In this document: one piece after another, positions 5,499 to 27,829 of the stretch
Position numbering within the stretch: the first letter of the stretch is position 1
How the letters are laid out: each line of letters starts with the position of its first letter
Virus record (IMG/VR): IMGVR_UViG_3300001533_000533
Location: 1 to 28,422 of that record
Source of the DNA: a virus
Strand: one strand, 5' to 3'
DNA length: 28,422 nt
Notes under the pieces: model-generated
Databases searched by the model: none
What the model was told of the DNA's origin: nothing
What the model saw: only the letters and a program-made list of their open reading frames with translations
Made by a program: the position numbers and the translations under genes

Positions 5499-6812
5499 TT
5501 ATGTATTATATGTAATATCTTTTTGTGTTATATAACATACTCCTTTTTCTACAACTTCATTGGAATAATATATCCAATAATCATTATGCCCTCCTAATTC
5601 AGATGTATCAATATGTGTTAAATCAATGTTAAATTCATTATAATCAACTTCAACATCTAATGTTTGTGTTCTGTCCATGTCTACATAACGATATACACCA
5701 GTATATCCACTATCCATATAACTAATCATATATCTTGAATCATTTATGGTAGTTAAGAACATTCCTTCACTCCAATCATCTAATGGAATAGCGTTATTAA
5801 TGATTGTTATATCATCTTCAATAACTTTAATTAATGATGTGTATATCTTTATATCATTTCCACTATAATAAGATATATAAGCGTAATAATCATCTAATAT
5901 TCCTATATTTAAATCATAACAATATGAATCTTCTACAACAGATGGTATTCCAATACTGATATATTCATCATATATTCTACAATTACGAACTTTTAATTGA
6001 TCATCAACATCATAATATAATACAACCACATTTCCATCTTGATATGCTGATGAAGAAAATAATGTTAAATCATCATTAAAGACAAAAGGGAAACCAACGC
6101 TGAATATATGATCAATACTCTTTTGTGCTAATTGTATTATCCCTTGTGTATTAGTATGATATGTTAATACTATATAAGTTGAAGAAACTTTATCTATATC
6201 TAATCCTTGTGCTTCTCCATTATAAAACATTGTCGGATCATATTGTGTTAATGTTCCGTTATAAAATACTTCCTTTAAATATGATTTTTGTTCAATTCTA
6301 TCATAATATCCGATACATAATGTAGATATGTTTATTGATACTATTCTTAAATTAGATACAGCATTATCACAGAACGATTCAGAAACAAGTTCAGTCCCAC
6401 CAGAATCAACTATCACTATCATTCCCTTATCATTTGTTATATCATTAAAGATAATCCCGTATTTCGTCCCTAATTGTGTTGATTGTGTATAATTTATATT
6501 ATCATCAGAATAAAATGTGTGATTTACACCAGAAATCTGTATAATATTATTGAAAATATGTGTTAAATTAGAAAAAGCTGATATGTAATATGAATTACCA
6601 GAATAAAATTCAACTTTATCATCAAATGATAATTCAGATACATTAGTTTTACCGGAAACCCAAGGAGATTCGTCTTGTATATCCATTGTAAATCCAGTTT
6701 TACTTATATGATTAAATATTTTTAATTCGTAATCAAATGTTTCTTCTGTTGAATATGAATTTTTTAAGTAAAATGTTTTATTATTTGATTCTTCCGATTT
6801 TAATTTAAACAT
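5499..6812 (-). CDS. Beta-rich, propeller-like virion protein between tail tube and portal
   Basis: The 437-residue protein has no family that I recognise. Residues ~60-380 hold recurring beta-strand units such as YYISAFSNLTHIFNN, TLCIGYYDRIEQKSYLKEV, TYIVLTYHTNTQGIIQL, GNVVVLYYDVDDQLKVRNC, YYAYISYYSGNDIKIY and RYMISYMDSGYTGVYRYV. Each has an aromatic-rich beta strand, and the spacing of about 45-50 residues suggests six or seven propeller blades. Residues 1-60 (NNKTFYLKNSYSTEETFDYE) and the last ~50 look like separate small domains. It is the first gene after the terminator at 6901-6927 and lies 16 bases ahead of the portal. It could be a capsid decoration, a neck whisker or a receptor-binding protein; position alone cannot separate these. 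Confidence 0.55.
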   Translation of the reverse strand: MFKLKSEESNNKTFYLKNSYSTEETFDYELKIFNHISKTGFTMDIQDESPWVSGKTNVSELSFDDKVEFYSGNSYYISAFSNLTHIFNNIIQISGVNHTFYSDDNINYTQSTQLGTKYGIIFNDITNDKGMIVIVDSGGTELVSESFCDNAVSNLRIVSINISTLCIGYYDRIEQKSYLKEVFYNGTLTQYDPTMFYNGEAQGLDIDKVSSTYIVLTYHTNTQGIIQLAQKSIDHIFSVGFPFVFNDDLTLFSSSAYQDGNVVVLYYDVDDQLKVRNCRIYDEYISIGIPSVVEDSYCYDLNIGILDDYYAYISYYSGNDIKIYTSLIKVIEDDITIINNAIPLDDWSEGMFLTTINDSRYMISYMDSGYTGVYRYVDMDRTQTLDVEVDYNEFNIDLTHIDTSELGGHNDYWIYYSNEVVEKGVCYITQKDITYNT

Positions 6813-13247: not shown

Positions 13248-16200
13248 TTATGCTTTTTCTTCATCATAAATAGCTGATATTTCATCTTGTGTTAATGTTT
13301 TAGATTTATAAAATCTTAAATTAGCCACTCTTTGATTTACAATAAAAGAAGGAATATTATCATGTGAACCAATCATCAAAAATGATTCATTTAACATATT
13401 TGAAGTAGCGTAATTTGGACTATAACGTTCATCAATATATTCATTATTAATATATAATTTCATAATAGCTCCTGTTGTTCCACTTGGTTCAACAGTTTGA
13501 ACAATATGATTCCATCCATCAAATGAAGTAACTCCGGAACTATAACCAATAACCAACCAATCATAACCAGCATCTGTCCATACTGTAAAAAATGATCTAT
13601 CAGATGTAGTATTAGTTTTTACTCTAATAAAATTGACACATGCTTCTTGATCTCCTTGTAAACCATTAATATAATATCCATGACAACATGTAGTAGCACC
13701 ACTACTATATTGATATATCCATACAGATGAACTAAACGCATTAGATATTCCAGTTATAGGAACAAATACATCAGTCCAATTTATTTCTGAATTACCGAAC
13801 ATCGGTAAAGAACTACCACCTGGAAAATCTAATGATTGTTCTCCGGATTTAATACCATCATTCCAATATGTTGTATCACCAGAAGTTCTTGTAATCGTTA
13901 AACCACTAATTTCATCAACCAAAGTATTATTAAACGTCCAATAATAATCTGGTGATGGTGGTGGTGGTAGGTGTTGATAAATCCATAATTCTTGATCAAT
14001 TGGATAATCAGATGAAACAAATACTTTACCTAATCTTGTAATTCCTGTTATAGAATCATCAACATACCAATCAAAACTTCCATTCCCAAGTCCAGTTCCA
14101 CCAGAAATTGTAATCCAATCGTCTTGTGGTGTAGCTGTCCAATAATTAGAATATTGTGTTGTTACTTGTGATGTTCCACTTGTAACTCCGGTTACATCTA
14201 TTTCATAATAATCTAATGAAAGTGTCGCGTAATTCTGTTGAACATTAATTGTATAATTTCCAAAATCAGATGTTATATAAATCTCTCCAATCCTTGCTGA
14301 AACACCAGTATTTTCCTCTGCTACATATGTGAATGATGAAGAACCAGTTCCACTTGTAGAACCAGATATACTTAACCAAGTATTTCCAGTTGTTAAACTC
14401 CAATTATTAGTAGGATATGTAAATATTTCTATTTCATCTGTTGTATAATTAACACCAATATCCTTATATACAATATATGTATCAAATTTACTTAAAGTAA
14501 ATTCTCTACCTAAACAAGAATTTGGTGGTGTTTGTAATATATATAATACTTGATACTGATCACCAACTTGTGTTGGTCTCGTATTTGTATCTGGGAAATT
14601 TACAATTATATGATTATCTATTCCATCTTTCCATTCGTTTATATCTGATTTACAATTTGGTTCTATATACCATTGGAACCATCCAGATCCAGTTCCGCAA
14701 TATGAACCAAATGGTGGTGATCCACCCATAGGTGGTGATGTTGCTAATCCACCAGATGATGATATAATACCACCATTAATTAAATAAGGAGCAGCAATCC
14801 AATAAACACCATCTGGCGCATCTACATATGTAGTTCCGCTTAGATAACCATCAATTGTGCTACCACTCCAAGGCATAACATATATATTTTGATCTAATGA
14901 TAAATATCCAGTGTCACCAGAAGCATTATCTGGGTCGTACTTAAAAGTTAAACGAACATCATCTTTATATACAATACCACAACTATCAGATGTTAATGGT
15001 TTTACTATTAATCCAGTGCAACCACCAGTAGATGTAGGATTGACAATAACATCTAATAATAAATTACCATTTCCAGTTGTTCCATTAGTAACTTCTATTG
15101 TTGTTCCTCTATAATAGATAATAAAATTATAATAAGCACCAACATTACCAGTAAAATCCCATTCACATGTTGGATCAGAAGATATTATATCAATTGGAAC
15201 AGTAGTTAATCCACTGGCATCTATACAAGATTTACCACTATCAAATAATAACACTTGTCCATTGAAATTTGAATTTAATCCGAATGATGCTTCTTGAATT
15301 ATTGTTAATGTTTCTGGTTGATAAATATTTGGCCCATCAAATATAATTTCAGCTGTTCTACCAGTATATACACCATCTTCAAATCCACAATTAGCAGAAA
15401 TTATTATTATTGTTGTTCCAGAACCAGTCTGTCCGGTATTTGTCAATTGACAAATCCAATCAGCTGATGTAGTAGCACTCCATTGTCCCCAAGGATAATC
15501 CATTGTTATATCTACATGTTGTCCCTCGTAATATCCTTTATGTGTTTTATATGTTGTTCCACTTGGATCAATTGTTAAAGTAACCACAGTTGGAGTTTGG
15601 AATATTTCAGCTGTATTCGTCTTATCTTGTGCTATTGTTCCACCACTTAATTCAATAGATAATGTAGCTGTTCTACCAGTAATAGAATCATAATAATCAG
15701 CATTAATTGTAAATGTATCTTCACCAAAACCAGTATCACCAGTTAATTGAATCCAAGATTTATCAGCTGATAATTCCCATTCAGTATTAGAATATACAAT
15801 CATAGTTTCTGGATGTGTTCCATCCCAGTAAATATCTTGTTCTAATGGACTGATATATCCATACGGATAAGCCCCTTGAATCAATTCAAAATATAATTCA
15901 TCTTCTGATGAACAATCAGATACAGAATAAATTATAGCTGTTCTACCAGTAGCTGTCTCTGGGTTTTCGTCCCATTCTAACATGAATGAACCATTTCCAG
16001 TTCCACTTCCACATGGATCGATTATATTAACCCAATCTTCATCACAATATATTGTCCAATTATTAGTTGAATAAGCTGATACTGTAATTGATCCCATTGA
16101 ACCAGAATAATTAACATCTAAACCAGATGGAGTAGTGTTTATATAATTAGGATTATAATATGTATAAGTATCAGAACCAATCATTATCCATCCAGTATAT

Positions 16201-18845
16201 CCCGGATATAATATTTCTATTTCTATTAATTTAGTTCCGTTTTCCCAATTATCTAATGTTCCATTTTCATTATTATAATCATAAAAACTTCCCGGCATTA
16301 ATACCTGTTCTGAAATTACATTTGTATCATATAATGTATCTCCACTATCACTATAATATTTAACTCTTAAATCATAATTAGAACTAATTAATACTCTATC
16401 TGTTGAATCATTCGTTATTCTGAAATCAATATCAGCGTATGTCCCACCAGTAATTGGTGTTGTTGATGATACATTTGAAATAGATATATAATCAGCCCAA
16501 TCAGTAATATTAATATATATTCTATTATAATAAGTATCATATAAATACATTTCAATATAACACAATCCATACCAATCTGCTTCAACATTTACACTATCAG
16601 TTAATGTTTGATTTGGACTAAGTGTTCCACTAAATGATGTTGATCCGTGATAAACTGATTCACCATCATGTCCATCTGGTAAAGAATAAAATTTAATCTG
16701 TCCATTATAATTCTGTTCTTCTATTGAATCGTTATGTAATGTATATGATACATTAATATATTCTGTAATCCACACATCATAATCAGTTATTTCCCAATTC
16801 CTTATATACACTTCAATCAATTGTGTAGCTGGAATTAATAATAATTCAGCTTGTGTTCTTCTATTCGTTGGAGAATGGACTAATTTATTAACATAATAAT
16901 AAGTATCATCAATAAATATTCTATCTGCAAATGATAATTCACTTATTTCTTGTGGAGATAAATCTACTGGAATTTTTAATAATCTACTATTTTGATTTTT
17001 AATTAAATCCATATATTCTTTCCAATACTTTCTATATAATGATTGTCCTATTGATTTATCAACTGGTTCATAAGTTAAAGTATAACCACTATTTGGATAA
17101 TCAAATAAAAGACTATCAAAATTATAACCAAAAAAAGCATCACTTAAATAAGGAGTTCCGGTGTAAAATCTGGTTTTTCTATTTCCATCATTGAATTCAA
17201 ATTTCTTCAAAAAATAACTCTGTGCTAATATTCTCCAATTCCATTTAGTATTTATTTCTCCTTTCCAAGTTTCATCAGTTCTTTCTTGTTCTTTATAAAT
17301 ACTTGGCCAAACAACATTAGTTGTATCACTAAATCTGGATATAGCTGTCGGAGAACATAATAATTCAATTGTTTCAGCTTTATCAAAGAATGTAGTGTTT
17401 ACATATGTTGTTAATTCACCAATTGTTTTTTCAGTAGCATCAGTATAATACTGATTTAAATAATCTGTATCATTTTTATAAGTAAATCTATATGAACGGG
17501 AATTTATTTCAGACATTAATTTATTCTTTTTGTCTTTAACATCTACTTTATAAGTCCAATCTCTATCAGTTCCTAATGCGTAAAAATCATTAAATGGTTC
17601 TATAATTAAATTTTTAGTATCATCCTTATCAGCTTCAATATATAAATTAAACATTCTAAATATTGTGTTAAATAAATCAACTTGTTTTAAACCAGTCGGT
17701 AATATTTCAGAAATCTTAACTTCACTTAAACCAATTAATAATGATCCATCTGTTGAATAATCAATACTATAATCTAATTCATTAGTTCCTCCTTGGCAAT
17801 AAGGAACAGAAAATATATATCTATCTAATGGAATATCATCAGTAGTATATTCAAATGTTCCAGATGTAGTTCCAACTGATGTACCGGGAGTTACATCTAA
17901 ATACCATCTAAATAATTCAGTTGTTAATGTTCCATCAAATTTCTTTGAATATATACCAATCCAAGCATTAGAACAATCTTCTGATGTTAATTCATATTCA
18001 CCTACTATTTTAACTCTACCAGCAGTTGGCATCTTAAATACAAAAGGATAGTCAGATGTCCCACAACACGAATCATTTAAACTAAACGGATCATATGTAA
18101 TATTAGCTGAATATGTTGCTGTATAACCACCAGAAAAACTACTTGTGAAAGCTATTTCTTCACTATAATATTTAGTATCTCCACCAGATATGGAATTAGT
18201 ATATGGAATAAATAATCTCTTAAATTCATCACTATTAAAAAAATCACTTTCATATGTATAACCATATGTTTCAAATATCTTATCAATTAATGTCTTTATA
18301 TAAAATCCGGGAAAAAATGAATATGTATCTCCACTTGCTTGTATCTCTTCAAATGTCCAAGGAACATCACTATAATTAACCCAAGGATAATAATATCCTT
18401 CTCTTACTGTTGATTCCCAAGTATCTTCAATAAGATCTAAACTATATGTATGATCATATTCACTTAAATCCAAATCAGTTAATAAGAAGTCTCCCATATC
18501 CTCCCAGATTGTCGTATTAACTCCATAGACAATTATTTTATAGGTTATCTTTCCATCTATATCATTCACATCAGTTATCTTCTGATATCCCTCTAAGACG
18601 GGAATTGAATCAACTCTGATTTCACATCTCTTTTTTAAATTTGGATTATAACCAACTTCAATATTTTCTTCATATAAGAATCCAAATTGTTTATTATTAT
18701 TTGGTGTGCCGGGAATATCAAATTGCTTCGTCCAAGCATTATTTGTAGTAGATGGATTTCTAATATCATTGATTGATTTAGTAAATTCAATCTGTGTATT
18801 TACATCTAATTCTATATTTTTCCCTTCAACAATATATTCTACCAT
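13248..18845 (-). CDS. Giant tail protein with BACON-like repeats and a LamG-like lectin domain
   Basis: The 1865-residue protein has an N-terminal part (~1-660) like tail proteins of other Bacteroidota phages: IEFTKSINDIRNPSTTNNAW, then KQFDIPGTPNN, and later LLKIPVDLSPQEISELSFAD. A beta-sandwich section (~675-895) follows. BACON-like domains then start at about 899, 994, 1086, 1447 and 1540. They carry the pattern of a strand, TNNWTIYCDEDWVNI or SNTEWELSADKSWIQL, then a Gly/Ser loop, TGRTAxI, and a terminal strand ending near IxQ. Two more diverged units may lie at ~1187-1440. A PPPPSP linker (~1627) leads to a concanavalin-A/LamG-like domain (~1633-1865; YYWTFNNTLVDEISG, FDGWNHIVQTVE, MKLYINNEYID, VANLRFYKS). 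BACON domains are thought to bind carbohydrate or mucin, so adsorption to glycans is the likely job. The domain count is by eye. Confidence 0.85.
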   Translation of the reverse strand: MVEYIVEGKNIELDVNTQIEFTKSINDIRNPSTTNNAWTKQFDIPGTPNNNKQFGFLYEENIEVGYNPNLKKRCEIRVDSIPVLEGYQKITDVNDIDGKITYKIIVYGVNTTIWEDMGDFLLTDLDLSEYDHTYSLDLIEDTWESTVREGYYYPWVNYSDVPWTFEEIQASGDTYSFFPGFYIKTLIDKIFETYGYTYESDFFNSDEFKRLFIPYTNSISGGDTKYYSEEIAFTSSFSGGYTATYSANITYDPFSLNDSCCGTSDYPFVFKMPTAGRVKIVGEYELTSEDCSNAWIGIYSKKFDGTLTTELFRWYLDVTPGTSVGTTSGTFEYTTDDIPLDRYIFSVPYCQGGTNELDYSIDYSTDGSLLIGLSEVKISEILPTGLKQVDLFNTIFRMFNLYIEADKDDTKNLIIEPFNDFYALGTDRDWTYKVDVKDKKNKLMSEINSRSYRFTYKNDTDYLNQYYTDATEKTIGELTTYVNTTFFDKAETIELLCSPTAISRFSDTTNVVWPSIYKEQERTDETWKGEINTKWNWRILAQSYFLKKFEFNDGNRKTRFYTGTPYLSDAFFGYNFDSLLFDYPNSGYTLTYEPVDKSIGQSLYRKYWKEYMDLIKNQNSRLLKIPVDLSPQEISELSFADRIFIDDTYYYVNKLVHSPTNRRTQAELLLIPATQLIEVYIRNWEITDYDVWITEYINVSYTLHNDSIEEQNYNGQIKFYSLPDGHDGESVYHGSTSFSGTLSPNQTLTDSVNVEADWYGLCYIEMYLYDTYYNRIYINITDWADYISISNVSSTTPITGGTYADIDFRITNDSTDRVLISSNYDLRVKYYSDSGDTLYDTNVISEQVLMPGSFYDYNNENGTLDNWENGTKLIEIEILYPGYTGWIMIGSDTYTYYNPNYINTTPSGLDVNYSGSMGSITVSAYSTNNWTIYCDEDWVNIIDPCGSGTGNGSFMLEWDENPETATGRTAIIYSVSDCSSEDELYFELIQGAYPYGYISPLEQDIYWDGTHPETMIVYSNTEWELSADKSWIQLTGDTGFGEDTFTINADYYDSITGRTATLSIELSGGTIAQDKTNTAEIFQTPTVVTLTIDPSGTTYKTHKGYYEGQHVDITMDYPWGQWSATTSADWICQLTNTGQTGSGTTIIIISANCGFEDGVYTGRTAEIIFDGPNIYQPETLTIIQEASFGLNSNFNGQVLLFDSGKSCIDASGLTTVPIDIISSDPTCEWDFTGNVGAYYNFIIYYRGTTIEVTNGTTGNGNLLLDVIVNPTSTGGCTGLIVKPLTSDSCGIVYKDDVRLTFKYDPDNASGDTGYLSLDQNIYVMPWSGSTIDGYLSGTTYVDAPDGVYWIAAPYLINGGIISSSGGLATSPPMGGSPPFGSYCGTGSGWFQWYIEPNCKSDINEWKDGIDNHIIVNFPDTNTRPTQVGDQYQVLYILQTPPNSCLGREFTLSKFDTYIVYKDIGVNYTTDEIEIFTYPTNNWSLTTGNTWLSISGSTSGTGSSSFTYVAEENTGVSARIGEIYITSDFGNYTINVQQNYATLSLDYYEIDVTGVTSGTSQVTTQYSNYWTATPQDDWITISGGTGLGNGSFDWYVDDSITGITRLGKVFVSSDYPIDQELWIYQHLPPPPSPDYYWTFNNTLVDEISGLTITRTSGDTTYWNDGIKSGEQSLDFPGGSSLPMFGNSEINWTDVFVPITGISNAFSSSVWIYQYSSGATTCCHGYYINGLQGDQEACVNFIRVKTNTTSDRSFFTVWTDAGYDWLVIGYSSGVTSFDGWNHIVQTVEPSGTTGAIMKLYINNEYIDERYSPNYATSNMLNESFLMIGSHDNIPSFIVNQRVANLRFYKSKTLTQDEISAIYDEEKA

Positions 18846-21899: not shown

Positions 21900-22064
21900 T
21901 TAAACAATATCTAATATTTGATAATCAACTAAATTAAATATATTCATATATATCCAAATAAATTCATCATCATATCCTAAAATTGTTAATATAATAAATG
22001 TCTTTAATTCTAATTTTGCTATCATTTTTATTCCATTTATTTCTCCGTATATTCTGTCTTTCAT
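21900..22064 (-). CDS. Small hypothetical protein coupled to the large terminase
   Basis: This 54-codon ORF reads MKDRIYGEINGIKMIAKLEL, then KTFIILTILGYDDEFIWIYM and NIFNLVDYQILDIV. Its ATG (22064-22062) shares one base with the TerL stop codon (TAATG), a typical sign of translational coupling. The hydrophobic middle (TFIILTILGY) is too short to be a firm membrane segment. Because it fills the whole gap between TerL and the chaperone ORF, it is likely to be real, but the function is unknown. Confidence 0.5.
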   Translation of the reverse strand: MKDRIYGEINGIKMIAKLELKTFIILTILGYDDEFIWIYMNIFNLVDYQILDIV

Positions 22065-23413
22065 TATGTATCTACAAAAGAGAATTTAAATCCAGATTGT
22101 TTAACATCAAATACTGTTCGCATTATAACAGCATCAGCAATATCCGGTGATCTCCCTAATTGTTTTTTAACTTTATCCTTTGGTAAAATTTGTGTCTTTG
22201 TATTATCCTTATCATAATTATACATCGTATGTGCTGCTAATTCTTGAATTAAATCATCAGAATATTTTCTATGTGAAATTTTGATTCTATCGGTATTTAC
22301 AAGTTCAGCGAACTTATACCATAACTCGTCCTTTAATATTCCATATATGGAGTTCTTTGGACGTTCATTTGCTACGAATCCAATACATCCCTTTAATAAA
22401 TCAAACAACCCAGTTCCAACACCAGATTTATCAACAACAATATTATTTATTCTGATTGAATGTTCCTTCATTAATGTTTTAATTCTTTCATAAACTTGTG
22501 GAATTGTTTTCTGTTTCATTTTCTCTATATAATAACAATCTAATCCTTCCCATATCGTAATAACTGTATCATCCTTTCCAGTGGAAGCAACATCACAAGT
22601 TAAATATTTAATCTTTGAATTTTTATCATCATCAAAAAATGAATTGTGAAACATATTTACTAATTTGTCTTGTTCAAATATACTTTCATCATTAGTTGAA
22701 TAATTCCAATCACCATACAACAATCTTGATTTTACCGGTAAATCTAAATTCTCTAAATTATTTTTATATGATTTATCAACATGTGGATTATCATCTACAA
22801 GTCCTAAAACAACATTAATATTATCCGGTAATGTTCCATCCATATATGGTTGATAAATTTCAGATTTAATAAAATTTAAAGTTGGATTAGTCACCACTAA
22901 TAATTTAGGAATTAATTTATATTCTTTATGTTTAAATCTAATTCTTGTTTGAATGATTTCAAATGCTTTCTTGGTGATTTGTGAAGCTTCATCAATTACA
23001 CAAAATGTAAATTCAGTTGAACTTATTCTTTCAAATTCTGGATCTGTCGGGTATAGATATGAATCAAATATCATTATTTTACTTCCATTCCAAAATGTAA
23101 TGATATTTGTTTTTCTATCAAATGAAAATTGTTCTCCTTCTTTACAATGGAATTCTTTTAATACTGACATTAAAGTTATTAATGTTGATTTACTAAAATC
23201 AATTAATCTTGCTCTTGTCATCCCAACTACAATACCTGGAAATTGCATACAATATAATACAGAAAAGGCACAAGCTAAATAAGACTTTCCACAACCAGCT
23301 GAACCACCAAATAATAATATATTAGTTTTATCATCTGTTAAATATTCCCACGCTTGATGTTGTAAATAAGTAGGATTAAATTCTATTTCTTTTTTTGGTG
23401 CTGATAATTTCAA
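22064..23413 (-). CDS. terL: Terminase large subunit
   Basis: TerL drives ATP-dependent DNA packaging and cuts concatemers. Visible motifs are Walker A GGSAGCGKS (residues ~36-44), the hydrophobic Walker B strand with the catalytic pair DE (FCVIDEAS, ~137-144), and the coupling segment LLVVTNPT. The RNase H-like nuclease carries acidic residues at CDVASTGKDD (Asp ~274), VVDKSGVGTG (Asp ~327) and SPDIADAVIM (Asp ~423/426). At 449 residues it has the usual length. Its start is TTG at 23413-23411 and overlaps the TGA of the sulfotransferase gene; no internal ATG would keep Walker A, so TTG is required. The unusual start and overlap indicate that its synthesis depends on ribosomes finishing the upstream gene. 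Confidence 0.97.
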   Translation of the reverse strand: MKLSAPKKEIEFNPTYLQHQAWEYLTDDKTNILLFGGSAGCGKSYLACAFSVLYCMQFPGIVVGMTRARLIDFSKSTLITLMSVLKEFHCKEGEQFSFDRKTNIITFWNGSKIMIFDSYLYPTDPEFERISSTEFTFCVIDEASQITKKAFEIIQTRIRFKHKEYKLIPKLLVVTNPTLNFIKSEIYQPYMDGTLPDNINVVLGLVDDNPHVDKSYKNNLENLDLPVKSRLLYGDWNYSTNDESIFEQDKLVNMFHNSFFDDDKNSKIKYLTCDVASTGKDDTVITIWEGLDCYYIEKMKQKTIPQVYERIKTLMKEHSIRINNIVVDKSGVGTGLFDLLKGCIGFVANERPKNSIYGILKDELWYKFAELVNTDRIKISHRKYSDDLIQELAAHTMYNYDKDNTKTQILPKDKVKKQLGRSPDIADAVIMRTVFDVKQSGFKFSFVDT

Positions 23414-24015
23414 CTCTTATCTTTCATTTTTTCATATGTTTCAACTACACTATTATACATATCTTCCACTCTTAACATTTCTTCAAGTTGCTTAATTGAA
23501 TAATTAAATAATTTATCCTTTCTATTTATTACATCTTTTGGAATAATTAATTCTTTATCATATAACCATAATTTATCATAATTTTGTATTTCATCAATTT
23601 CAACAGATTCAAAATATTCATCTCCCATAAAATCATCAAATAATTTATTCCACTCTATATAATAAATTGCCGCATTTTTAATTGATGAATATTCTGTTTT
23701 AATCGGAACATAATCATACATATATTTAGAATATCCATTTATTAATATTGATTTAGGATTAAATCTATCTAAGTCCATAAATGATTTAATTACTTTAAGT
23801 GGATGTCTATATATACGAACAATTAGATCGTCCTTATACAGTCCTAAAAACGGTGTTGCTAACCAAGATGATTCACTATGTTTTAATGGTATACTTCTTA
23901 AACGATTTGAATGAATTTCGTGCCCACATTTAATATTATTCCTTTTTAATAAATAAGCCATATAACCAGTCCCACTCCTTCCACAACCAGTTATTAAAAA
24001 ATTATCAGATTTCAT
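23410..24015 (-). CDS. Phage-encoded sulfotransferase
   Basis: The 201-residue protein starts NFLITGCGRSGTGYMAYLL, the P-loop-like 5'-phosphosulfate-binding motif of PAPS-dependent sulfotransferases (TGCGRSGTG, residues 9-17). The second motif, LIVRIYRHPLKVIKSF (Arg ~70, Ser ~78), matches the 3'-phosphate-binding site. These enzymes move sulfate from PAPS to hydroxyl or amino groups of sugars, lipids or proteins. At 201 residues it is shorter than most members (250-350), but both cofactor motifs are intact. It lies between a small SH3-like gene and TerL in the packaging operon, with its stop overlapping the TerL start. A packaging-related ATPase or kinase is unlikely given the second motif. 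The acceptor cannot be read from sequence. Confidence 0.86.
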   Translation of the reverse strand: MKSDNFLITGCGRSGTGYMAYLLKRNNIKCGHEIHSNRLRSIPLKHSESSWLATPFLGLYKDDLIVRIYRHPLKVIKSFMDLDRFNPKSILINGYSKYMYDYVPIKTEYSSIKNAAIYYIEWNKLFDDFMGDEYFESVEIDEIQNYDKLWLYDKELIIPKDVINRKDKLFNYSIKQLEEMLRVEDMYNSVVETYEKMKDKS

Positions 24016-24017
24016 AT

Positions 24018-24284
24018 TTATTTTTTATTTTTTCTTAAATAATCCATCTCCCCTTTGGTTAAACTATTTATTCCATTCTGTGAAATGTTATTTAATATTG
24101 TATCTAAATCATATTCAACAATTGAAATTAAATTACATTCATATTCCCATTCATATGTATCATTATAATATACATTATATTGTATAACATTTTTTGAACA
24201 TAATAAAATCTGATATACAATTCCATTCCTCTTAGTTATTGTATTATATACTTTATCACCGATTTTAAATCTGAAATTATTCAT
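24018..24284 (-). CDS. Small SH3-like protein with a C-terminal DUF6576-like helical motif
   Basis: The start at the ATG at 24284-24282 was chosen because the protein then opens NNFRFKIGDKVYNTITKRNG, a typical SH3/KOW-like beta-barrel start. An earlier in-frame ATG at 24353 would add 23 residues and lie wholly inside the TerS gene. The chain continues with barrel strands (NVIQYNVYYNDTYEWEYECN). The C-terminal helical motif LDTILNNISQNGINSLTKGE, followed by MDYLRK, resembles the short DUF6576 tail found on some Bacteroidota rhomboid proteins. The ATG lies inside the end of TerS (8-base overlap). Role unknown; binding of nucleic acid or a protein partner is plausible. The family link is from memory. 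Confidence 0.62.
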   Translation of the reverse strand: MNNFRFKIGDKVYNTITKRNGIVYQILLCSKNVIQYNVYYNDTYEWEYECNLISIVEYDLDTILNNISQNGINSLTKGEMDYLRKNKK

Positions 24285-24801
24285 CTGATTCTTTATTATT
24301 TTTTTCTGGTTGAATATAATTAATTGTAATTCCAACTCCATTTTCAGTTTCATCTACGATTATCTGTTGATTAATTGCTGCTCCCCTTCCAGTATATCCT
24401 AATAAATCTGTTAATCTTTGATAAGCTATATTAGCCTCTCTGTAATTTGTATCTTTAATTTTATCATAGAAAGAATAAGTTTCATTTACACATTTATCAA
24501 GCGTTAAAAAATTCTGTTCCCTAATTTGAACTTGTATATCTTCAACATATTTTTTTGCTGATGGATATTTTAAAATATTTTTTGCTCTGGCTATTAATTG
24601 TTTATCAGAATATTTTTCTCCATTTCTTTTAATATGTAATCCCGCATGAATCATCGCGTTCTGATAATGAAAATTCTCTGCGTAATGTGTAAGGAATTCT
24701 CTTTCACTTTTTGTGAATTTTTGTTTATCTTCAACTTCAACAATTTCTAATCCGTTCTTTCTTTTATTTGGAATTTTTTCTAATCCGTCTAATCTTTTCA
24801 T
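24277..24801 (-). CDS. terS: Terminase small subunit
   Basis: The 174-residue protein has an N-terminal helix-turn-helix-like region (FTKSEREFLTHYAENFHYQN, then AMIHAGLHIKRN and SDKQLIARAKNILKYPSAKK), the order found in many small terminases: a first helix, a second helix with AxxxAG, and a segment that ends in repeating lysines. A helical part (NYREANIAYQRLTDLLGYTG) follows, and the acidic tail ends in EKNNKESDE. The protein recognises the packaging site and brings the DNA to TerL. It is separated from TerL by two small genes, which is unusual but does not change the call. The exact DNA-binding residues cannot be assigned from this view. Confidence 0.8.
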   Translation of the reverse strand: MKRLDGLEKIPNKRKNGLEIVEVEDKQKFTKSEREFLTHYAENFHYQNAMIHAGLHIKRNGEKYSDKQLIARAKNILKYPSAKKYVEDIQVQIREQNFLTLDKCVNETYSFYDKIKDTNYREANIAYQRLTDLLGYTGRGAAINQQIIVDETENGVGITINYIQPEKNNKESDE

Positions 24802-26374: not shown

Positions 26375-26540
26375 AATATTTATATTCGTAATATTTTTTT
26401 ATCAGTTGTTCATTTAATACATCATAACCATTAAAATTATATATGTATTCTTCTCCCATACATACGATTCCGATTTCGTATCCTTGTTTTTCTCTTAACC
26501 ATAATATATAATTATGATAATCTTCATTTATTATTATCAT
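26361..26540 (-). CDS. Small hypothetical protein coupled to the methyltransferase
   Basis: The 59-residue product (MIIINEDYHNYILWLREKQG, then YEIGIVCMGEEYIYNFNGYD and VLNEQLIKKYYEYKYYGRD) has a helix-strand-strand-helix feel. Its ATG (26540-26538) overlaps the methyltransferase TGA (ATGA), which strongly suggests coupled translation. I do not recognise a family. Small accessory proteins after phage methyltransferases are common, but no specific role can be claimed. Confidence 0.5.
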   Translation of the reverse strand: MIIINEDYHNYILWLREKQGYEIGIVCMGEEYIYNFNGYDVLNEQLIKKYYEYKYYGRD

Positions 26541-27829
26541 TTTAAAAATTGTCTATATTTTTCATAAGATTTAATTCTTGCTTCTGATATTTCTATATAT
26601 TCTTTTTCCTTTTCAATTCCTATAAATCTATTCCCATTTAATAATGCTGATATACCAGTCGTTCCACTTCCCATAAAACAATCTAATACTATTCCTTTTG
26701 GTGGAGTAATTAAATTGATTAAATAATTCATTAACTTTACAGATTTTAATGTGGGATGGGTGTTCTTTTCTATCTTAAATCTTGTTAAAGGGGAATCAAA
26801 TTTTAATTGTCCTTCATCTCTCCTTTCTCTTTGTTTATCTTCAAATCCATCCAATCCCATATTCCTCTCCTTTGTTGATGGTTTGGAACAATAGAAAAAT
26901 CTTGCGGGAGTTCCTTCATCATTGAAACCACAACTATCTGTTTTATTTTTTGATGGTTTTCCTTGAAATAAATCTGATTTATTAAAATCTTTCATTCCAC
27001 CACCTTTACTAATCGTAGTTCCAGCTTTCGCAAATTCCTCCATTACTTCATCACTCCCATCGTGTAATGTGTGGGCAGGGAATCTACCTAAATTATTAGC
27101 CGTTCTTCCTTCTCCATCAGATGCCATAAATGTTGTATCTTTTTGTGATTGTTTATATCCACATTCAACTCCTTTCTTAATATTATTAAAATATTTTTTA
27201 TCAAAATATCCAATCCTACTCCCATCAATATTCAAACCACCAACTCCCCACTTCAATACATTATCAACAATAGTTTTTTCTGATAATGGTTTTCGAATTA
27301 AAAACCAAAATTCAGAAGATGGTTTAAGAGCCGTTCCAAATCCTTCCCATTCTGATGTTTCTTTTGTTATGTAATTATCTTTCCGTTTCCATTCCTTTTC
27401 GGTGAATCTTGACCAATCATCAAATGATGTTTTTTTTGATTCACCTAAAACTTCCCTATCATTCCCCAACTTCTTATCAACTCCTTTACCTATATTATAT
27501 GATTTAGGAAATCCACTACCAAATAAATATTGTATTACGTCCCTTACTTCAAATCCGGCATTCTCCAAAGCCATACCAGTCCAATGTGAAGTTCGCGGCA
27601 ATGCCCATACTAAACCATGTCCTCCCGGTTTTAATACTCTATTCACTTCTATCATGATTTCTGACAACCATTTAATCCATTCATCTCTACCTCCTTTGTC
27701 CTTATCCCAATCTTTACCCATAAAGCCAATACCAGCTGGTGGATCAGTAACGACACTATCAACACTATTCTTTGGTATTCTTTTTAATTGTTCTAAGGCA
27801 TCTCCGTTTAATAATTTATAATCTTTCAC
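26537..27829 (-). CDS. DNA methyltransferase, beta-class, DPPA variant
   Basis: The 430-residue enzyme carries motif IV as TDPPA (residues ~28-32) near the N-terminus and the S-adenosylmethionine motif I as DCFMGSGTTG near residue ~383, an order typical of beta-class amino-methyltransferases. Other matching segments are GFMGKDWD, HPTLKSVKLM, RFPAHTLHDGSDEV and RFFYCSKPSTKERNMG. The middle, KPSSEFWFLIRKPLSEKTIV followed by WGVGGLNIDGSRIGY, is the recognition part of this phage family. It would methylate the N6 of adenine or N4 of cytosine, probably protecting phage DNA from restriction. DPPA differs from the usual DPPY/SPPY, a known variant in phage members. Start is GTG at 27829-27827, overlapping the TGA of the membrane-protein gene. 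No cognate endonuclease is seen. Confidence 0.92.
   Translation of the reverse strand: MKDYKLLNGDALEQLKRIPKNSVDSVVTDPPAGIGFMGKDWDKDKGGRDEWIKWLSEIMIEVNRVLKPGGHGLVWALPRTSHWTGMALENAGFEVRDVIQYLFGSGFPKSYNIGKGVDKKLGNDREVLGESKKTSFDDWSRFTEKEWKRKDNYITKETSEWEGFGTALKPSSEFWFLIRKPLSEKTIVDNVLKWGVGGLNIDGSRIGYFDKKYFNNIKKGVECGYKQSQKDTTFMASDGEGRTANNLGRFPAHTLHDGSDEVMEEFAKAGTTISKGGGMKDFNKSDLFQGKPSKNKTDSCGFNDEGTPARFFYCSKPSTKERNMGLDGFEDKQRERRDEGQLKFDSPLTRFKIEKNTHPTLKSVKLMNYLINLITPPKGIVLDCFMGSGTTGISALLNGNRFIGIEKEKEYIEISEARIKSYEKYRQFLK

Follow-up and report, generated by a model that had tools for sequence, protein, structure and literature searches.

A compact gene lodged between the terminase genes of an uncultured tailed phage probably encodes a PAPS-dependent sulfotransferase that is carried as moron cargo, made late and directed at a carbohydrate hydroxyl with host PAPS, a reading to which we give a probability of about 0.65. 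The DNA analysed here, called the window throughout, is a virus record of 28,422 bases. In the proposed mechanism, the auxiliary gene sits at the TerS-TerL junction, where it probably shares a transcript and translational coupling with terL; such coupling would place its expression late in the infection. The enzyme would take its sulfate from host PAPS and transfer it to a hydroxyl group. The acceptor would most likely be a carbohydrate, with a host surface polysaccharide, an LPS-type glycan or a virion glycan as the candidates. The phage might benefit from a surface glycan changed during infection or from a masked particle. This reading is supported by a family-specific profile, by the predicted structure, by the mobility of the family among unrelated phages and by the tolerance of the junction for cargo.

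Organization of the terminase locus

The features of the locus and the motifs of the encoded protein are the following, all on the minus strand.

22064-23413, minus strand: TerL (terminase large subunit); Pfam Terminase_6N and Terminase_3, phrog_2 E = 8.9e-31
23410-23413, minus strand: TTGA overlap of the sulfotransferase stop and the TerL start, from reading of the sequence
23410-24015, minus strand: predicted sulfotransferase gene, 201 aa, ATG start; motifs, family profile and predicted structure
23782-23808, minus strand: 3'-PB motif RHPLKVIKS, residues 70-78; R70 and P72 invariant, S78 conserved at 90% or above
23851-23877, minus strand: SESSWLATP motif, residues 47-55; typical of the clade with the window gene
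23917-23925, minus strand: GHE motif, residues 31-33; H32 and E33 invariant in 42 members
23965-23991, minus strand: 5'-PSB loop TGCGRSGTG, residues 9-17; G10-T16 invariant in 42 members
24018-24284, minus strand: 88-aa ORF between TerS and the sulfotransferase; weak, C-terminal DUF6576 match
24277-24801, minus strand: putative TerS (terminase small subunit); Terminase_2 E = 0.02, below cut-off, and position
26537-27829, minus strand: N6/N4-type DNA methyltransferase, context only; PF01555 E = 9.3e-34

The assignment of TerL is secure from its domain matches, while the identity of TerS rests mainly on position, since its Pfam match is weak. A preliminary description of this DNA had placed the sulfotransferase gene between terS and terL. 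This order holds (putative TerS, 88-aa ORF, sulfotransferase, TerL), with the qualifications that the 88-aa ORF also intervenes and that TerS is weakly assigned. The genes are tightly packed: the putative TerS overlaps the 88-aa ORF by 8 nt, and the ATG of the sulfotransferase gene lies 2 nt past the stop of that ORF. The previously described overlap with the TTG start of terL is confirmed, the TGA of the sulfotransferase gene (23412-23410) sharing bases with the TTG (23413-23411) in the 4-nt TTGA. This TTG is the sole usable ATG, GTG or TTG start before the Walker A motif of TerL, because an in-frame TAA stands two codons upstream.

The nearest isolates by TerL are Cellulophaga phage phi10:1 and Flavobacterium phage 11b (35-37% identity), and the tailed phage of the window therefore probably infects a host in the Bacteroidota. 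With a GC3 of 0.139, the sulfotransferase gene resembles its neighbours (0.132-0.148) and thus gives no sign of a recent import.

The 201-residue protein as a predicted sulfotransferase

The two PAPS-binding motifs reported earlier for the 201-aa protein are both present, with the TGCGRSGTG loop at residues 9-17 and RIYRHPLKVIKSF beginning at residue 67. The distance from R70 to S78 corresponds to the usual spacing of the 3'-PB motif, in which an arginine and a serine lie eight residues apart. In an alignment of 42 family members, GCGRSGT (G10-T16), H32-E33, R70 and P72 are invariant, and H32-E33 are candidate catalytic residues. The C-terminus of the window protein departs from the family consensus, which closes with a conserved YGY.

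Standard searches returned little. In Pfam, the window protein matched Sulfotransfer_3 (PF13469) at E = 0.009, with 16.7 bits against a curated cut-off of 27; because this score falls under the cut-off, we assign the protein to the PAPS-dependent sulfotransferase superfamily and not to Pfam Sulfotransfer_3. Relatives were not found with single-sequence searches of viral contigs, GenBank phages (tblastn) or the PDB, nor with a two-sequence query of genome contigs, and no useful assignment came from PHROGs and NCBIfam. A profile search of the PDB gave a coiled-coil chance match at the top, followed by weak matches to the sulfotransferases SgdX2 and CurM.

The entry point to the family was provided by DNA-pattern searches with the P-loop motif. 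The closest homologue is a full-length protein with about 41% identity from a 55-kb virus record, after which the family came to 38 viral and 24 genomic loci. When the window protein and this closest homologue were left out of a family profile, the profile scored the window protein at 102 bits (E = 1.7e-27 at Z = 1e6), compared with at best 5.2 bits among 201 controls (200 shuffles and a reversal). This score and the invariance of the motifs across 42 members argue that the motifs are not due to chance. At E<=0.01, 17 of the 42 members matched Sulfotransfer_3, and at that threshold none of the 42 matched a non-sulfotransferase Pfam family.

The AlphaFold2 model of the window protein has a mean pLDDT of 90.3 and a pTM of 0.87. 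When it was compared with the PDB by Foldseek, sulfotransferases ranked first (3rnl, 6bdq, heparan sulfate 3-OST 1vkj and SgdX2 8y9p), with probabilities of 0.9-1.0, TM-scores of 0.39-0.53 and E-values of 0.0018 or worse, so that no match in the PDB reached E<=0.001. The 5'-PSB loop, the 3'-PB motif and the fold together place the protein in the PAPS-dependent sulfotransferase superfamily, and we predict with high confidence that it acts as a sulfotransferase. The identity proposed in the preliminary description thus withstood both the profile searches and the structure prediction. That the protein belongs instead to the nucleotide kinases, or to some other group of P-loop enzymes outside the sulfotransferases, is very unlikely. 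The weak Pfam sulfotransferase score and the Fap7 and adenylate-kinase folds further down the Foldseek list would fit such an enzyme, but the Walker A lysine is missing from its GCGRSGT loop, and its 3'-phosphate motif (R70-S78) is maintained across the family. We rejected a kinase on the Pfam matches of the family and on the Foldseek ranking.

Cargo genes at the TerS-TerL junction

The tight packing and the TTGA overlap could also be taken to mean that the protein acts in packaging or particle maturation through a functional tie to TerL, as had been suggested earlier together with a survey of related phages for a conserved terS-sulfotransferase-terL order. When the family profile was run on the stored flanks of the 80 viral loci whose TerL is most similar, a family sulfotransferase was found at none of them (0/80), and the gene is also absent from the terminase loci of 11b and phi10:1. 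The order is therefore not conserved in related phages. The closest homologue lies 6.3 kb from terL in another phage and in a different setting. Among 15 other phage lineages in which both genes could be located, the sulfotransferase lay within 3 kb of terL in 3, against 2.4 expected by random placement (P = 0.43); enrichment near terL is not seen in this test, which uses fragments, has low power and sought TerL by one PHROG. Together, the terL survey and the proximity test led us to reject a role in packaging, and a TerL-coupled function in the maturation of the particle appears highly improbable, all the more as the junction is held by other, unrelated genes in sister phages.

The prevailing arrangement in the sister loci is an HTH-type TerS that overlaps the start of terL; no sequence relatives of the TerS and 88-aa ORF of the window are present in the 80 sister loci. 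Another cargo enzyme occupies the junction in L098 (2969-4004), where a TerS-like ORF is followed by a 193-aa GT2 glycosyltransferase and TerL, and small ORFs lie between a TerS-like ORF and terL in L096, L102 and L106. Directly upstream of terL are found a C5 DNA methyltransferase (L126), an HNH endonuclease (L129 and relatives) and a metallophosphatase-like gene (L104, L105, L108 and L109). The recognition of TerS relied on cluster and position only, and the DNA upstream of terL is short in a few loci; a TerS-like ORF precedes the cargo in L098, L106, L096 and L102, and a placement between TerS and TerL is unproven for the three other gene types. The presence of unrelated genes at the same spot in sister phages indicates that the junction tolerates cargo, and in these phages it appears as a place where cargo genes settle. 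The earlier proposal of a moron gene that uses the late operon agrees well with this tolerance and with a family that moves among phages of unrelated kinds.

Relatives of the enzyme and its likely acceptor

The family tree separates two groups at 99/99 support. Clade I contains the window gene and its closest homologue together with genes from Planctomycetota, Microbulbifer and several viruses, and many of its members have an SSWLAxP-type motif. The gene contexts of these relatives are informative. In Microbulbifer, the family gene lies amid GT2 genes, a Kdo kinase and a Kdo transferase, a locus of LPS-core type; in Planctomycetota, it adjoins a dTDP-sugar epimerase; and in the phage locus L034, a Methyltransf_24/CmcI-like gene is followed by a GT2 gene and the sulfotransferase, the last two overlapping. 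A Methyltransf_24-like gene is also found near the family gene in G009. In clade II, a member (L004) lies within a run of genes that were judged glycan-like by reading.

As relatives in its clade adjoin GT2, sugar-type methyltransferase and LPS-core genes, a carbohydrate is the likeliest acceptor of the window enzyme. Outside a 1,865-aa ORF (13248-18845), the scan of the window gave no recognised glycosyltransferase, which implies that the acceptor would be a host glycan or would be made by genes off the contig. A more specific proposal, in which the enzyme would sulfate glycans of virion proteins alongside phage or host glycosyltransferases, is in keeping with the late-operon position of the gene, with the methyltransferase-GT2-sulfotransferase run of L034 and with the GT2 gene just ahead of terL in the sister phage L098. 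We nevertheless consider it rather unlikely in view of the same lack of a recognised glycosyltransferase outside the 1,865-aa ORF; it also overlaps our preferred reading, in which the carbohydrate is kept general.

The 1,865-aa protein itself has repeated segments that by eye resemble BACON domains and a possibly lectin-like C-terminus, and is likely a tail or adsorption protein. Elsewhere in the family, the sulfotransferase genes form tandem pairs in L047 (4739-5925) and L081 (3078-4645). In G027 (2027-2407) and G028 (5727-6107), the records behind L048 and L049, the reading frame of the family gene contains a single in-frame TGA, the sign of either a decayed gene or a recoded stop.

PAPS supply and the possibility of sulfated DNA

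The window holds no APS kinase, and the phage would therefore use host PAPS. In two other phage lineages (L010, and L006/L009/L011/L017), an APS kinase is paired with a family member, which supports the PAPS dependence of the family. The APS kinase gene overlaps the family sulfotransferase gene in L010 (1115-5901), and methyltransferase-like and glycosyltransferase-like genes are close by; a small nucleotidyltransferase lies near the pair in both lineages. The run of L010 is possibly a compact phage supply of PAPS. More generally, this work outlines a compact sulfotransferase family that extends across phages and bacteria and divides into two clades, and its readable gene contexts (the LPS-core locus, the methyltransferase-GT2-sulfotransferase runs and the sulfotransferase-APS kinase pairs) offer concrete acceptors to test.

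TET/JBP enzymes are base oxygenases, and they bring in DNA as another conceivable acceptor. In L011 (4163-9903), a run of genes encodes a ParB-like protein, a Tet_JBP oxygenase (E = 1.7e-24), a sulfotransferase, a 306-aa protein, a DUF2061 protein, an APS kinase (E = 5.8e-19), a nucleotidyltransferase and TerL, and runs of this type are also present in L006, L009 and L017. The 306-aa protein of L011 has only near-identical copies among the sequences searched. This run is possibly a cluster for DNA sulfation or another hypermodification, and a sulfated DNA base is conceivable in such phages given the activity of TET/JBP enzymes. Tet_JBP genes also lie just upstream of TerS-TerL in two phages whose TerL is related to that of the window, L093 (2847-3650) and L143 (1875-2756), the latter with an additional FkbM-type methyltransferase, and probably likewise in L097 and L101; in L044, a Tet_JBP-like gene is located about 2 kb from the sulfotransferase.

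Extended to the window, these observations could mean that its enzyme sulfates a modified base of the phage DNA (e.g., hydroxymethylated or glycosylated) and protects it from restriction, which would explain a place beside DNA-packaging genes. In some such phages, TET/JBP would hydroxylate the base and a family sulfotransferase fed by a phage APS kinase would sulfate it before packaging, directly or via an added group, with the window phage as a reduced or partly unsequenced version. Both the general scheme and its extension seem improbable to us. The window has no Tet_JBP gene, although its contig may be incomplete, and its methyltransferase is of the N6/N4 type; the sulfotransferase of the L006-type run belongs to a clade other than that of the window protein, and, among the 43 sulfotransferase-bearing records, Tet_JBP is found in only 5, from two lineages. 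It is the L006/L009/L011/L017 lineage that offers much the stronger case; that for the window is weak. The TET/JBP-sulfotransferase-APS kinase run beside terL is a candidate for a new DNA modification and merits a study of its own.

Comparison with known sulfotransferases

Sulfotransferases carried by phages have been reported as auxiliary genes whose function is called unclear, and Sulfotransfer_3 enzymes are borne, for example, by OM43 phages and by Synechococcus phage S-SRM01 (PMC10580990); one sulfotransferase is also listed as a previously reported auxiliary gene (PMC8290583). The claim that the window gene is the best candidate for an undescribed system was therefore overstated, even if its exact place is unusual: it is phage-borne like the auxiliary sulfotransferases of PMC10580990, but a place between terminase genes is not described there. 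With Sulfotransfer_3 enzymes, including SgdX2 (8y9p) and the Alicyclobacillus protein 3rnl, the window protein has in common the PAPS-binding motifs, the fold and a compact single domain, whereas sequence similarity is very low and the structural matches are moderate. The sulfotransferases of the Microbulbifer LPS-core loci (L074-L077) belong to the same clade and have the P-loop and GHE-type motifs of the window protein, but they are chromosomal and lie amid GT2, Kdo kinase and Kdo transferase genes. As to the TET/JBP-linked DNA modification clusters of phages, L011 has a distant member of the family in a run of this kind ahead of terL, in contrast to the window, which is without Tet_JBP and has its sulfotransferase in the other clade. 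To conclude, the window gene is a new and divergent addition to the known phage sulfotransferases, in an unusual place.
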